Source of the DNA: Flavobacteriales bacterium
Lineage (GTDB): Bacteria > Bacteroidota > Bacteroidia > Flavobacteriales_D > Crocinitomicaceae
Direction: 5' to 3'
Assembly (NCBI GenBank): GCA_947476955.1
Contig: CANJSS010000013.1
Coordinates: 1 to 35,845, forward strand
DNA: 35,845 nt
Shown: positions 7,241 to 35,845 of the stretch, piece after piece
Layout of the letters: every line of letters begins with the position of its first letter
How positions within the stretch are numbered: the first letter of the stretch is position 1
Program-made: the position numbers and the translations under genes
Notes under the pieces: model-generated
Database searches by the model: none
Seen by the model: only the letters and a program-made list of their open reading frames with translations
Told to the model about the DNA's origin: nothing

Positions 7241-7651
7241 TTAATTAAATTTAAAAAAGAAAAATGCTACAGCTGCCCATTCTTTATTAATTCCTTTTGC
7301 ATATCCAATTGTTGCATAGCTACTATTTTGAACCGTTCCGTCGCTTTTTATGTGCCCAATTGTTGCATAGCTGCTGTTTTGAACCGTTCCATCACTTTTC
7401 ACATGGCCAACAGTTGCATAACTGCTGTTTTGAATCGTCCCATCACTTTTTATGTGTCCAATTGTTGCATAGCTGCTATTCTGAATCGTTCCATCACTTT
7501 TGATATGTCCAACAGTTGCATAGCTGCTATTCTGAATCGTCCCGTCGGGTTTTATGTATCCAGTCGTTCCATAGTTGCTGGATTGAATAGTTTGTGTATA
7601 CGCAATGCTAAACGTGAATAGCAGTGTAATTAAAAGAATTGCATTTTTCAT
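7241..7651 (-). CDS. Small secreted protein of 17-residue tandem repeats
   Basis: 136 residues from the ATG at 7651. An upstream in-frame ATG (7681) would add MREIHPKLDK before the signal peptide and is less likely. After a signal peptide (about 1-20, SIAYTQ) come five full 17-residue repeats (residues 25-109) with core SSYATIGHIKSDGTVQN, then a decayed sixth and a hydrophobic tail EWAAVAFFFFKFN. Each unit has two short strands joined by SDGT turns, which suggests a repetitive beta structure. The plan matches the protein at 2235-2726, although the repeat sequence differs. I do not recognise a named function. Confidence 0.75.
   Translation of the reverse strand: MKNAILLITLLFTFSIAYTQTIQSSNYGTTGYIKPDGTIQNSSYATVGHIKSDGTIQNSSYATIGHIKSDGTIQNSSYATVGHVKSDGTVQNSSYATIGHIKSDGTVQNSSYATIGYAKGINKEWAAVAFFFFKFN
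7274..7579 (-). repeat. Tandem 51-bp coding repeats (five full copies plus one decayed)
   Basis: In-frame 51-base units in the secreted repeat protein. On the plus strand the block ttgcatagctgct and the turn codons for SDGT recur nearly unchanged, indicating recent expansion or homogenisation. Confidence 0.85.
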
Positions 7652-7742
7652 TTTATCTAATTTTGGATGGATTTCTCTCAAACAACCTATTTCTAAATAT
7701 AGTTAATACTATTTAAAACCAAACGAATAGCGCGCTAGTTTA

Positions 7743-32296: not shown

Positions 32297-33013
32297 ATGA
32301 AAAAAAGTCTTTTTTTAGTATTCGTTTCGATTTCCATTTGTCTTTCAGCGGTATCTCAGTTGCAAGCCGTCAGAGGAAAAGCAGCCTATAATTTTTGGTT
32401 ATCGCTTCCGGCAGACAGTATTCTGCAAAATAATCCTCCGATTTTAATCTTTCTTCATGGAAAAAGTCTTTCTGGTTCGGATTTGAATTTGGTGAAAAAA
32501 TATGGTATTATTCACGAAATGGAAAATGGAAGAACTATTCCCGCAATTGTAATTGGTCCGCAGGTTCCAGCAGGTAAATCCTGGGAGCCGAAGAAAATAC
32601 TGGAAGTTCTAGAGTACGTTCAACAGCAGTATACAACGGATACAAATCGCGTTTATGTTGCAGGAATGAGTTTAGGTGGCTACGGAACCTTACATTTTGC
32701 TGGTGCGTATCCAGAAATTGTTACCGCAGCGGTAGCTTTGTGTGGTGGAGGAAATGTTAACGATGGCTGCGAGCTTGCAACCGTGCCATTATGGATACAA
32801 CATGGAAATAGGGATAGCGCTGTTCCAATTTCTGAATCGGAGAAAATTGTGAAGGCGATAAAGGCGTGTAATGGCGGAGAGAATTTAACCTATACAGTTG
32901 TAAATGGTGGAACCCACGGCGATTTAGAGCGCGTTTTCCGAACAGATGAAATGTACAATTGGTTGTTTCAATATACAAACGCAGTAGAAAGTATTACAGA
33001 AGAAAAGAAGTGA
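32297..33013 (+). CDS. Secreted alpha/beta hydrolase (PHB-depolymerase-like esterase/peptidase)
   Basis: 238 residues after a signal peptide (about 1-20, SAVSQL). The nucleophile is S125 in GMSLGGYG, with D173 in HGNRDSAVP and H207 in GGTHGDL, a complete catalytic triad. HG near LIFLHGKSL forms the oxyanion hole. The family covers feruloyl esterases, PHB depolymerases and oligopeptidases, so the substrate is open. It is the last ordinary gene before the cassette array. Confidence 0.88.
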   Translation: MKKSLFLVFVSISICLSAVSQLQAVRGKAAYNFWLSLPADSILQNNPPILIFLHGKSLSGSDLNLVKKYGIIHEMENGRTIPAIVIGPQVPAGKSWEPKKILEVLEYVQQQYTTDTNRVYVAGMSLGGYGTLHFAGAYPEIVTAAVALCGGGNVNDGCELATVPLWIQHGNRDSAVPISESEKIVKAIKACNGGENLTYTVVNGGTHGDLERVFRTDEMYNWLFQYTNAVESITEEKK

Positions 33014-33169: not shown

Positions 33170-33341
33170 GAAGCATTCGCGATAATTACCCCAAGTCGCA
33201 TTGTATAATTAGCTTGGGACCCATGTGCTGAAATTCAGAAGAAATTTGGAACTGTTTGAGGAGGCACGACGAGTTTTTCAAATTTCCTGAATGAGGCACT
33301 AATGGGTAAGCGAATTATGCACAGCGCTAGGGCTCTTTTTG

Positions 33342-33369
33342 TTACTTTTTTAGCTCTTGAAAAAAGTAA
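33342..33369. repeat. A/T-rich hairpin, possible weak terminator
   Basis: TTACTTTTTT (33342-33351) pairs with AAAAAAGTAA (33360-33369) over an 8-base loop, preceded by CTTTTTG. A-T content is high, and no clear U tract follows on either strand. Confidence 0.5.
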
Positions 33370-33411
33370 AAGAAATATTATTTATTAGATAAGCTGAAAT
33401 GGAGGGCAGAC

Positions 33412-33547
33412 AGATAACACAGGCTTAAGCTCCATTCCGAGATTCTTGCTTCGAAGTAAAGATTTAGTATATTTAAAATAAATTAAACTTCGGGTTGGCG
33501 TTTATGGATGAAAGTTCGGAACGGCGCCTAGCCTGAAACCGTTATGC
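33412..33547 (+). repeat. attC-like recombination site A
   Basis: An R''-like box AGATAAC (33412-33418) and an R'-like box GTTATGC (33541-33547) flank a 136-nt imperfect palindrome. Inner arms 33421-33440 and 33516-33534 match at AGGCT, GC, CC and TTCCGA, with one extra base on the left arm. Two of the three mismatches are A-C on top, that is T-G wobble on the bottom strand, the strand folded in integron recombination. It differs in sequence from sites B and C while keeping the same layout. R''/R' fit the classical RYYYAAC/GTTRRRY only loosely. Confidence 0.75.
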
Positions 33548-35167
33548 GTAATTTATGAGACGACCCCCTGGATATTGGAATGACTGGAAAAATTTAGAAC
33601 TAACATTACTACCAATTTGTCAGAAACTGAATCGTTTTCCATCTGCGACAGAACTTTCTTCAATGGGACTTTCTTCTGTTGTTAAATATGCCTTGCCAAA
33701 TTTTGGTGGATACGGAACCGTTGCAACACGACTTGGTTTTAAAACATATGATGAATCTATAAACAGACACCCTCCAGACTTTTGGACAAAGGAGAAAACA
33801 ATTGAAGAATATATTAAGTTTATAAAACAATACGATTTTAAATACTTCCCAAGTCATAGAGAAATTACCACAAAGGGAAGGGACGATTTAAAAAATGCTA
33901 TTTATAAATTTTTTGGCTTCAGAGAATTTAAGAAAATTATAAAGGAAAAAGGAATTATACTTGAACCAACTAGAAGCAATTCCAACAAATGGAATGAAAC
34001 AAATATTATTACTGAATTAAAAAGTATAATAACACACTTGGGATATTTCCCCTCTATAAAAGATTTTGAAACCCTAAATAGACACGACTTAAGAGGTGCA
34101 ATTGACAAATTTGGAGGTGCCAAAAAATTTATTTCACTGCTTAATTCACAATCCAAAGCAGAATATCGGAACATCAAACCCTCTGGACATTGGATGAAGT
34201 GGGAAAACGTCGAACCCACTCTTAAAAACATTTGTAAAACAATTGGACGTTTCCCTTCTAAGACAGATTTTATTGGACTTGGACACAAAGACCTTTATCA
34301 CGGATTAAAGTATCACGGAAATTTAAAAGACTTAGCAAATAAGTTAGGATATGAATACAAAACACATAATCAGTTCATAACTCTGGACGGTGATTATGTA
34401 TTAAGTATTTATGAAATTCTATTCGATAATTTTTTGTTCTTAAATAAAATTTCGCATAAAGTAAATGGCGTTGTTGATGATAAATCAGGGAAAACGTTTC
34501 GTTATGATTTTTTAATTCAAAACAAGGAAGACTTCTACATTGAAATTTGGGGACTGAGCAATTCCAATACAAATAAGTCAAAAAATTATGACATCAAAAG
34601 AGCAACAAAGGAAGTTTTTTATAAGAGTAAAAATTTAAACCTATTAAGTATCGAGCCCGACTTATTTAACGGTGACTTTTATAGAATATACGAGAATCTT
34701 AAAGCATTTTGTAAAGCCTCCGGAATAAAAAAAGAGAATTTTTATGAAAGTGAGAACTATATCGACCTTTTTATCGCTAAAGCATATTCTTATGAAACTT
34801 TGCAAAATGAATTAGCGCCATTCATTAAACGGTTTGATGGCTATATGCCAACTGCCTCGTTTTTAACTTCACATGGCGCAGGTCGACTTGTTAGCAGGGT
34901 TAGACAATTTGGTGGTTTTAAGAAAGTAAAAAGCAAATTGGGACTTTTATCAAACCCGAAAACAATTAGATACATTAAAAAATAAACAACGCATAACAGC
35001 ACCTAAGCAAGATGCGGAAGATCGTGCAAGTTGCAAATGCATTTTTTAAAGGTGCGCTACGCGCAACATTTTTTGCATTTGCGATTAAGTTCAGTACATT
35101 TAATGAAATTTATCGGTTAAGACAGTTTGGTGCTTTTAATTTCCGCACCTCGCTTAGCTGCCAACCG
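33542..35167 (+). mobile_element. Integron-like gene cassette 1
   Basis: Bounded by the G/TT positions of sites A and B (1626 bp), with one plus-strand gene. Its left end GTTATGCGT (33541-33549) is the exact 9-nt reverse complement of ACGCATAAC (34989-34997) at the start of its own right-end palindrome. This is what a circular cassette would need to rebuild a full attC. Site B's right box, belonging to the next cassette, pairs over only 5 nt. Confidence 0.75.
33555..34985 (+). CDS. Cassette-borne five-repeat DNA-binding protein with probable PD-(D/E)XK nuclease core
   Basis: 476 residues. There are five copies of a roughly 55-residue helical repeat (about 6-62, 73-131, 146-197, 210-266 and 411-464), each with a (R/Y)(F/M)P(S/T) turn, a short helix and a G-(G/F/N)-x-x-(K/E)-(F/L/V) end. 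It resembles the homing-endonuclease-associated repeat family. Between repeats 4 and 5 lies a region (about 280-370) fitting a Vsr/PD-(D/E)XK-type core: E287 (SIYEILFDNFLF), D318 (TFRYDFLI), E330 (FYIEIWG), then KRATKEVFYK (K348/K352). The catalytic Lys is displaced, as in some family members. The start lies 8 bases after the left boundary box. A self-contained nuclease with its own DNA-recognition repeats fits homing or anti-phage roles; neither is shown. Confidence 0.8.
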   Translation: MRRPPGYWNDWKNLELTLLPICQKLNRFPSATELSSMGLSSVVKYALPNFGGYGTVATRLGFKTYDESINRHPPDFWTKEKTIEEYIKFIKQYDFKYFPSHREITTKGRDDLKNAIYKFFGFREFKKIIKEKGIILEPTRSNSNKWNETNIITELKSIITHLGYFPSIKDFETLNRHDLRGAIDKFGGAKKFISLLNSQSKAEYRNIKPSGHWMKWENVEPTLKNICKTIGRFPSKTDFIGLGHKDLYHGLKYHGNLKDLANKLGYEYKTHNQFITLDGDYVLSIYEILFDNFLFLNKISHKVNGVVDDKSGKTFRYDFLIQNKEDFYIEIWGLSNSNTNKSKNYDIKRATKEVFYKSKNLNLLSIEPDLFNGDFYRIYENLKAFCKASGIKKENFYESENYIDLFIAKAYSYETLQNELAPFIKRFDGYMPTASFLTSHGAGRLVSRVRQFGGFKKVKSKLGLLSNPKTIRYIKK

Positions 35168-35173
35168 TTATAA
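34991..35173 (+). repeat. attC-like recombination site B
   Basis: R''-like GCATAAC (34991-34997) and R'-like GTTATAA (35167-35173) frame inner arms CTAAGCAAGATGCGGAA (35003-35019) and TTCCGCACCTCGCTTAG (35141-35157). Of 17 positions, 15 pair and the other two are T-G on the bottom strand. The apical part has further nested stems (GCAAATGCA/TGCATTTGC at 35033-35041 and 35074-35082, and a GCGC/GCGC hairpin), like the long variable terminal structure of large attC sites such as VCRs. Length 183 nt. Confidence 0.85.
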
Positions 35174-35702
35174 GCAAATTAAAAACCAGATTATGAAATG
35201 CGAAAATTTTAAAAAAATTCTTCAAGAGAATTTAGATGGAAAAATCACCATAAATTCAAACAAAGTTTGGGGTTGGAAATTGTCAATAAAGAAAGACATT
35301 GAATTAGGTGTTGAAATTGAAAAAAATGCTAATCATGTGATTTTGACAATTTCTCGAGAAGAGCCAGGTTTATTAGATGATAAATATCCTTGCATAAAAA
35401 AGTTTATAATAAAACGTTTAGAACAAATTGCAGGTGCAAAAAAAACAATACGATGGCTTGACTATTTTGATATTGAAAAGGACTCAGAAACATTTATAGA
35501 AAATAGAAATGAAAAATTTTATCCAAAACCGAAATTTCACAAAAAATATTTTTATGATGATGCAGAAGTAGTAAAATTTTTGAAGGAGTTGATTAGCAAA
35601 TGATTGTAAATCTTCTTATAACAGCACCTACTTGTAATTTTTGCGTGTTAATGCTCAAATACGTAACTTGGACTTGCAAAAACTACAAGTAGCTGCAAAC
35701 CG
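35168..35702 (+). mobile_element. Integron-like gene cassette 2
   Basis: 535 bp between the G/TT points of sites B and C, carrying one small plus-strand gene. Its left end GTTATAAG (35167-35174) is the exact 8-nt reverse complement of CTTATAAC (35615-35622) at its own right end, the same self-matching rule as cassette 1. Site C's right box pairs in place over only 4 nt. Confidence 0.78.
35193..35603 (+). CDS. Unrecognised 136-residue cassette protein
   Basis: The ATG at 35193 (MKCENFKKILQEN) is chosen. The frame is also open upstream from 35127, but that part lies inside site B's right arm and is artefactual. The protein is charged, with alternating strand and helix stretches: WGWKLSIKKDIELGVEIEK, HVILTISREEPG, a YPCIKKFIIKRLEQI helix, and a KKTIRWLDYFDIEKD segment near the middle. 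No signal peptide or membrane segment; cytosolic. I do not recognise a family. Being in a cassette suggests a stand-alone function such as defence, a toxin-antitoxin part or an accessory enzyme, but the sequence shows none of these. Confidence 0.7.
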   Translation: MKCENFKKILQENLDGKITINSNKVWGWKLSIKKDIELGVEIEKNANHVILTISREEPGLLDDKYPCIKKFIIKRLEQIAGAKKTIRWLDYFDIEKDSETFIENRNEKFYPKPKFHKKYFYDDAEVVKFLKELISK

Positions 35703-35708
35703 TTAAAG
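35616..35708 (+). repeat. attC-like recombination site C
   Basis: R''-like TTATAAC (35616-35622) and R'-like GTTAAAG (35702-35708) flank arms CTACTTGTAATTTTTGC (35628-35644) and GCAAAAACTACAAGTAG (35676-35692). Sixteen of 17 positions pair, and the other is T-G on the bottom strand. The outer spacers are unequal (AGCAC on the left, CTGCAAACC on the right), as in attC sites. At 93 nt it is the shortest of the three. Confidence 0.85.
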
Positions 35709-35736
35709 GCAAGCTCGAAGACCACAAAAAATCAAT

Positions 35737-35845
35737 ATGAAACAATTAGTAATTATTCTTTTCCTAACATTGAATGCCTCAGCCCAAGAAGTGTGCAGTA
35801 ATGGATTGGATGATGATAACGATGGATTGATTGATCTTAACGACA
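35737..35845 (+). CDS. Start of a secreted acidic-repeat protein (runs off window)
   Basis: The ATG at 35737 opens MKQLVIILFLTLNASAQ, a signal peptide, then EVCSNGLDDDNDGLIDLND to the window edge. The CxNGxDDDxDGLxD pattern is the calcium-binding-like start seen in large T9SS-exported Bacteroidota proteins. It begins 29 bases after site C's R' box, so it is either the next cassette gene or the chromosomal gene beyond the array. Only 36 codons are visible. Confidence 0.75.
   Translation, partial: MKQLVIILFLTLNASAQEVCSNGLDDDNDGLIDLND

Follow-up and report, generated by a model that had tools for sequence, protein, structure and literature searches.

A cassette array at a contig end in Flavobacteriales, probably of an integron variant whose integrase lacks the I2 insert

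What kind of element ends in three folded repeats with no integrase beside them? The window analysed here is the whole of contig CANJSS010000013.1 (35,845 bases), one of 179 contigs in the 2.70 Mb draft genome of a Flavobacteriales bacterium (Bacteroidota, Crocinitomicaceae; assembly GCA_947476955.1). Towards its right end it carries three palindromes with outer TAAC and GTTA boxes, which a first-pass annotation had read as an integron-like cassette array. Positions 33412 to 35845 are very probably the left part of a cassette array that belongs to an integron variant widespread in this part of the Bacteroidota, a variant with an integrase that lacks the I2 insert and with attC-like sites that mostly lack extrahelical bases. 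These two absences are the main point here and go beyond the earlier reading. At the level of sequence, what is seen are attC-like sites of fixed geometry, cassette ends that are complementary to themselves and, in relatives, a recombinase without I2 followed by an attI-like site.

Attachment sites and cassettes

The palindromes lie where they had been placed, with TAAC at 33415, 34994 and 35619 and GTTA at 33541, 35167 and 35702. All three have unequal spacers, one unpaired nucleotide (nt) after TAAC and five before GTTA, and the two boxes within each site pair poorly, over 5, 5 and 4 nt. The left end of cassette 1 is complementary to that cassette's own right box over 9 nt, and that of cassette 2 over 8 nt, both as first described.

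Covariance model R2, built from 15 natural sites of about 125 nt, all from other genomes, and run with default filters, finds exactly three sites in the 35.8 kb window and no other at E≤5; the absence of any covariance match, which the first-pass annotation had named as a refutation of its reading, is thus not what is seen. An earlier and shorter model with joined arms, R1, finds site 3 only, probably because its matches were kept short, and R2 took its place; a further alignment of 18 short sites (A2) was misaligned and left unused. A scan of the window with Rfam gave nothing at the gathering threshold. At E≤0.01, R2 finds six sites in the draft genome (two on C13 and one each on C145, C66, C83 and C105), and the third window site brings this to seven sites on five contigs. 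A site at E≤0.001 is present in 33 of 40 genomes, the source genome included. In 28 loci that contributed no training sites, picked because our alignment script had found sites there, R2 gives 105 matches in 27 loci, and 3 of these matches count a palindrome a second time, on its opposite strand. Around the recombinase described below, the first 38 named loci give 49 matches in 18 loci (7 of the 49 are training sites), with 46 on the plus strand and downstream; 41 further loci, mostly from other lineages, give a single match, in a Pontibacter, which also belongs to the Bacteroidota. Loci with classical integrases give no match at E≤1 in 14 cases and one match at E≤0.01 in 18 more.

The complementarity of cassette ends is general. 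Among 57 neighbouring pairs of sites, the window's two included, 40 follow the rule over at least 7 nt, against a mean of 2.5 and a maximum of 12 in 2000 shuffles; complementarity of that length within one site occurs in only 5 of 57. In a wider set of loci without I2 the rule holds in 47 of 73 pairs. A first control set of I2-bearing loci followed it in 5 of 12 pairs, where shuffling gave 5 at most. The counts of this wider comparison keep some single pairs that look like chance, in L105, L121, L130, L134, L188 and L215. The longest open reading frame (ORF) runs in the direction of the array in 49 of the 57 cassettes. We note that the lengths of the attC-like sites in the 57-pair set cluster at about 61–74, 123–130 and 184–193 nt.

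The cut would fall after the G of GTT, because near-identical sites from different places diverge right after CGTT: in 36 such pairs, which are not independent of one another (a further pair was set aside because its flanks are alike, out of 37), all are identical at CGTT, and identity then falls to 0.58, 0.44 and 0.19 over the next three bases. The left end expected for a full cassette before site 1, GTTATCTGT, has no match in the window apart from the reverse strand of site 1, and the predicted start of the next site of the array, GCCTTTAACA, has seven matches in the draft genome, none on a contig with an R2 match. The contig ends inside the array, and the array of this genome is probably best called a cluster of attC sites lacking an integrase (CALIN) of the variant without I2. 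A CALIN has at least two attC sites and no integrase next to them. In line with the earlier suggestion of a CALIN-type array, three attC-like sites are present here, and an integron-type integrase was found in neither the window nor the draft genome.

Recombinases and attI-like sites in related genomes

The source genome encodes two recombinases of the phage integrase family over the PF00589 cut-off, both with the size and motif spacing of Xer proteins. The integron integrase model TIGR02249 is over its cut-off in none of 99 genomes, the source genome included. Its split matches are strong; they cover model positions of about 2–180 and 238–315 and leave the middle absent. Patterns of the R' end share contigs with such split matches in four genomes (G005, G008, G015 and G061), and in the loci fetched the sites lie downstream of the split-match recombinases. 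The divergent recombinase that had been considered possible thus has candidates in relatives, where the sites follow a tyrosine recombinase without I2, and the reading as an integron-like array is upheld by the covariance matches, by the general cassette-end rule and by the recombinase and attI-like site that precede such sites in relatives.

The missing part can be measured. Between the KxDR-type motif and HxxR, array-bearing recombinases of the Bacteroidota have 58–59 residues, with 63 in L093, and those of virus-classed contigs 53–58 where measured, compared to 100 in IntI1 of R388 and 105 in a Planctomycetes IntI; Xer-like rows mostly have 62–67. The alignment to IntI4 (2A3V) breaks where the I2 insert would be. 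The invariant columns of the recombinase alignment include what we take to be the catalytic residues R, K, H, R, H and Y. The I2 or additional domain, by which integron integrases are recognised in PMC2426708, is absent from the relatives' recombinases.

Among the 26 genomes of the genus, a profile of 12 recombinases (E≤1e-60) matches in 16; the source genome is one of the other ten. When the best 80 of at least 590 loci in named genomes were scanned, the script found sites downstream of the recombinase in Algoriphagus ornithinivorans, Flavobacterium aciduliphilum and Rufibacter, among others, and also in Winogradskyella ursingii, Algibacter onchidii and Seonamhaeicola aphaedonensis. In 12 array-bearing named genomes, a subset of those behind these 80 loci, no classical integrase reaches the cut-off. 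Across the whole phylum such an integrase is present in 105 of 395 genomes; matches at E≤1e-70 come from 106 genomes, 105 outside the window's class and one inside, the share of that class among the 395 being shown only in part. These searches thus reveal no hidden classical enzyme for the arrays without I2.

An attI-like site stands before the arrays in these relatives. The script found a first site in 27 of the 28 loci searched. Each of these 27 has, downstream of the recombinase, a GTT followed by the complement of that site's R'' box, matching 7–10 of 10 nt (9–10 in 25 of the 27) in a search that examined between 5 and 62 GTTs per stretch. The distance from the recombinase gene's end, or that of the match, is 34–152 nt in 17 of 27 loci, and the attI-like site is often preceded by a TATA-containing stretch. 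In two pairs of closely similar loci the match extends to the attI-like GTT or slightly beyond it, and the sequences then differ. In L084, L088, L092 and L097 the attI-like place is 924–1667 nt away, and it may there be an attC that the script missed. No attI-like site was seen in the window. In some genomes of the genus a 275-residue gene follows the integrase (L056, 4485–5312; with the same start in L055, L064, L068–L070 and L073); its product presumably is a BRO/antirepressor-like protein. The attI-like site lies behind this gene in L055, L056, L068 and L069.

The same class of sites also occurs on virus-classed contigs (L175, L177, L181, L184 and L196), beside recombinases of 267–289 residues without I2 that are transcribed divergently from the array; the contig of L196 exceeds 200 kb, and the viral nature of such contigs is a classification label only. 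Classical integrons have the array upstream of the integrase gene and on the other strand, and on the virus-classed contigs the arrays likewise lie upstream of the recombinase on the other strand. On contigs of Patescibacteria type or archaeal origin (L112, L119, L120, L122, L123 and L135) recombinases that mostly lack I2 lie no more than 700 bases from a contig end; judging from the viral contigs, an array would be expected on that side. In L064, L066, L067 and L070–L073 the contig stops at about 0.1–4 kb downstream of the integrase, as though assemblies tended to break at arrays. A relative of the IntI of L139 was not found in viral contigs.

A structure model of the recombinase (predicted local distance difference test 81.9, predicted template modelling score 0.47) has IntI4 (2A3V) as its top Foldseek match. 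In VIA-align the top row is XerA (5HXY), with Z 23.1 and a root mean square deviation of 12.3 over 250 residues, and IntI4 has Z 19.8 and 7.0 over 261 residues. The whole-model comparison barely tests residues 1–98, and the N-terminal part was therefore predicted separately. The first 70 or so residues of the Bacteroidota members form a separate domain with a weak likeness to the HARP domain of SMARCAL1 and the damage-recognition domain of XPB, here fused to a recombinase. Pfam HARP matches 3 of 18 members at E≤1 (best E 2.6e-8) and leaves 15 without a match; taken singly, L004 is below the cut-off and L079, L080, L021 and L074 give none. A profile of the domain finds 9D01 (E 0.001) and then 4O66 (E 0.006) in the PDB, and Foldseek places XPB 6P4F and HARP 4O66 first, albeit weakly (E 0.035–0.067). 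The recombinases of about 270 residues on virus-classed contigs are too short to hold such a domain.

In a quick tree of 99 of 152 rows, with array-bearing status set by hand and rows called Xer-like by motif spacing, the 17 I2-bearing integrases form one clade (100) and 28 array-bearing rows without I2 fall in a group of 49 (94) together with 21 rows without a seen array. Both lie inside a group (95, Shimodaira-Hasegawa-like approximate likelihood ratio test) that excludes 11 of 14 Xer-like rows; a grouping of the array-bearing recombinases with the XerC/XerD block was not found in this tree. The recombinase shares with XerA, XerC and XerD the lack of an I2 insert, and in NCBIfam, L056 and L054 exceed the cut-off of NF040815 (recomb_XerA_Arch) and L058 narrowly misses it. 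It differs from them in that it groups with IntI in the quick tree, has an SP-D tail as in IntI and stands beside cassette arrays. NF040815 bears the name 'site-specific tyrosine recombinase/integron integrase', so a link is already known in name.

Stem structure and strand choice

Under one criterion for both kinds of site, namely neighbours that obey the cassette rule over at least 6 nt, the stems differ. Among 139 sites of arrays without I2, 86 have no unpaired bulge base, 41 have one, 10 have two and 2 have three. Classical loci supplied 78 sites (14 of 18 loci contributed), with one (11), two (32), three (28) or more (7) bulge bases, and none is free of them. Sites with none or one thus make up 127 of 139, compared to 67 of 78 classical sites with at least two. 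The picture is the same once copies are removed (137 and 77 sites). It is similar in loci other than the virus-classed ones (73 of 79 sites with none or one) and when copies and L191, L199, L204 and L208 are left out (110 of 116); these four virus-classed loci were counted as lacking I2, three confirmed by spacing and L208 by match length only. The controls were drawn from viral contigs, R388 and other classes of the phylum because the plasmid IntI1 matches listed, at least 5000, are copies at 99% or more; 4 of the 18 control loci from other classes, including the one of the window's class, have no site with a cassette-end partner.

The strands of the bulge-free stems can still be told apart. 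At several stem positions of 67 bulge-free sites an A on the left faces a C on the right, and the reverse occurs at none; among sites that share one register, 36 of 41 have the mismatch at position 15 after TAAC. On the bottom strand these one-sided mismatches become T.G wobbles. Of 94 stems compared, 85 are more stable when folded from the bottom strand, as are all three window sites.

These features suggest how such a system could work. The recombinase would bind the hairpin of the bottom strand of attC and cut after the G of GTT, and cassettes would be excised as circles and inserted at attI. The strand would be chosen by the unpaired spacers of 1 and 5 nt and by the one-sided T.G wobbles, in place of extrahelical bases. 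A choice based on the spacer is plausible because PMC2727003 suggests that in a classical site stripped of its extrahelical bases the spacer can still impose polarity. In the Bacteroidota members, the HARP-like domain may contribute to holding the hairpin. In the source genome the integrase would have been lost, or would be missing from the draft.

Setting of the array, competing explanations and meaning

The features of the window are listed in Table 1. For the first-pass annotation, palindromes fixed together with their flanking genes in all relatives would have refuted its reading. The esterase loci of 17 relatives have no site (E≤0.1, up to 1.5 kb on each side), and this case fails. In the genome with the most similar esterase (G018) the likeness runs through the gene to window position 33196 and then ends, and the comparison indicates that the array is an insertion rather than a fixed neighbourhood. 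The 184-bp repeat at this edge recurs in reversed orientation on C145 (L060), between another site-bearing stretch and a chromosomal-looking gene, and parts of it recur nearby. Elsewhere in the window, at 2235–2726 and 7241–7681, two short proteins consist of near-identical tandem repeats (of the TNEFGSNKKQF and SSYATIGHIKSDGTIQN types).

Table 1. Coordinates of the array and its left flank in the window.
Feature	Coordinates	Strand	Remarks
Flanking chromosomal esterase gene, outside the array	32297..33013	+	In 18 of 40 genomes, own included
Repeat	33192..33375	.	95% identical to C145 2186-2004 of the same genome; its start coincides with the point where the DNA missing from G018 begins
attC-like site 1 (R'' AGATAAC, R' GTTATGC)	33412..33547	+	R2 E 3.1e-13; spacers 1/5; one bulged base; left-most, no complete cassette before it
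Cassette 1, unit that would circularise if the cut is G/TT	33542..35167	+	Ends self-complementary over 9 nt; putative cut point
Cassette 1 ORF, 476 residues	33555..34985	+	Weak HNH_repeat match, E 4.7e-4 (below cut-off); PADLOC candidate PDC-S69, E 1.4e-9
attC-like site 2 (R'' GCATAAC, R' GTTATAA)	34991..35173	+	R2 E 5.2e-10
Cassette 2	35168..35702	+	Ends self-complementary over 8 nt
Cassette 2 ORF, 136 residues	35193..35603	+	No Pfam (E≤1) or PADLOC (E≤0.1) match
attC-like site 3 (R'' TTATAAC, R' GTTAAAG)	35616..35708	+	R2 E 6.3e-9; R1 E 5e-8
Cassette 3 start, cut by the contig end	35703..35845	+	Open frame from ATG at 35738

It is improbable that the array is an ordinary CALIN, that is, cassettes of a classical integron that were inserted by an I2-bearing IntI from elsewhere and have since decayed. 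The draft genome without an integron-type integrase and the frequency of classical integrases elsewhere in the phylum fit such an origin, but nearly all the strong classical matches come from outside the window's class, the bulge counts differ between the two kinds of site, R2 is nearly silent in classical loci, and the same sites stand beside a recombinase without I2 and an attI-like site. We consider it highly improbable that this recombinase is a mere neighbour and that XerC/XerD or another enzyme moves the cassettes. The link between recombinase and cassettes is one of position in the sequence, and nine of the ten genomes of the genus that show no such recombinase were searched with R2, all nine having sites (G000, G001, G004, G007, G010, G013, G016, G018 and G019). 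Those genomes may, however, be incomplete or contain CALINs; in several families the sites follow downstream of the recombinase, and the attI-like site is within 152 nt of its end in most loci. That the palindromes are intergenic repeats, terminators or transposon ends with no recombination system behind them is hardly credible; they do lie in intergenic DNA, and the 184-bp repeat adjoins site 1, but the cassette-end and attI rules and the sharp divergence after GTT already contradict this reading.

Several observations weigh against the array of an I2-less integron variant that we prefer. It is known from sequence, and the window itself has no integrase. The gene was not found at E≤1e-60 in 10 of the 26 genomes of the genus, including the source genome and G018, several of the ten being incomplete. 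Sites are scattered over many contigs, and of those in the source genome the alignment script confirms the ones on C13 and C145 and none on C66, C83 or C105. Three loci, Rufibacter among them (L075, L081 and L086), have no R2 match where the script finds sites, and the recombinase of L093, with its segment of 63 residues, resembles some Xer-like rows in this respect. Our own alignment script produced the bulge counts; 12 of the 139 sites in arrays without I2 carry two or more, and of the window sites 1, 2 and 3, with 1, 0 and 0 bulged bases, the first has one. The match of I2 with extrahelical bases also rests on few independent changes, because the I2-bearing integrases form one clade.

With rather less confidence than we place in the identity of the array, we lean towards a second integron lineage, present in Bacteroidota and on certain virus-classed contigs, that would use folded single-stranded attC with a recombinase that never acquired I2 or has lost it, would read the strand from wobbles and spacer, and would have added the HARP-like domain in Bacteroidota. 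Like the classical integron (IntI1 of R388; IntI4 2A3V), the variant has an integrase gene, attI, attC cassettes and boxes resembling RYYYAAC and GTTRRRY, with an asymmetric unpaired spacer, a better-folding bottom strand and complementary cassette ends; it differs in the absent I2 insert, the mostly absent extrahelical bases and the extra N-terminal domain of the Bacteroidota members. The window shares with a CALIN the three attC-like sites and the lack of an integrase, and departs from it in the structural class of its sites, which is a different one, and in the array being cut off by the end of the contig.

PMC7790495 regards the I2 helix as the innovation by which integron integrases became able to recombine single-stranded attC sites, and notes a lack of intermediates. 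An integron with an integrase that lacks I2 is not named in the accessible part of the literature searched, a body that leaves most subscription papers and all bioRxiv preprints outside. One complete Bacteroidetes integron, in Salinibacter, is named in PMC9024848. The variant described here may explain why complete integrons have hardly been seen in Bacteroidetes. The integrase profile of the survey that names the Salinibacter integron is said to need the I2 part.

Integrons are a gene-shuffling machine best known for spreading antibiotic resistance, and bacteria seem to have a second way of running it, without I2 and without the flipped-out bases that I2 grips. If the second lineage is real, I2 would not be what made integrons possible, and arrays that obey the cassette rule beside recombinases without I2 are natural material for testing its role. 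They also open a pool of cassettes that may hardly have been sampled, and they raise, in a form that can be tested, the question of how integrases came to use single-stranded DNA.

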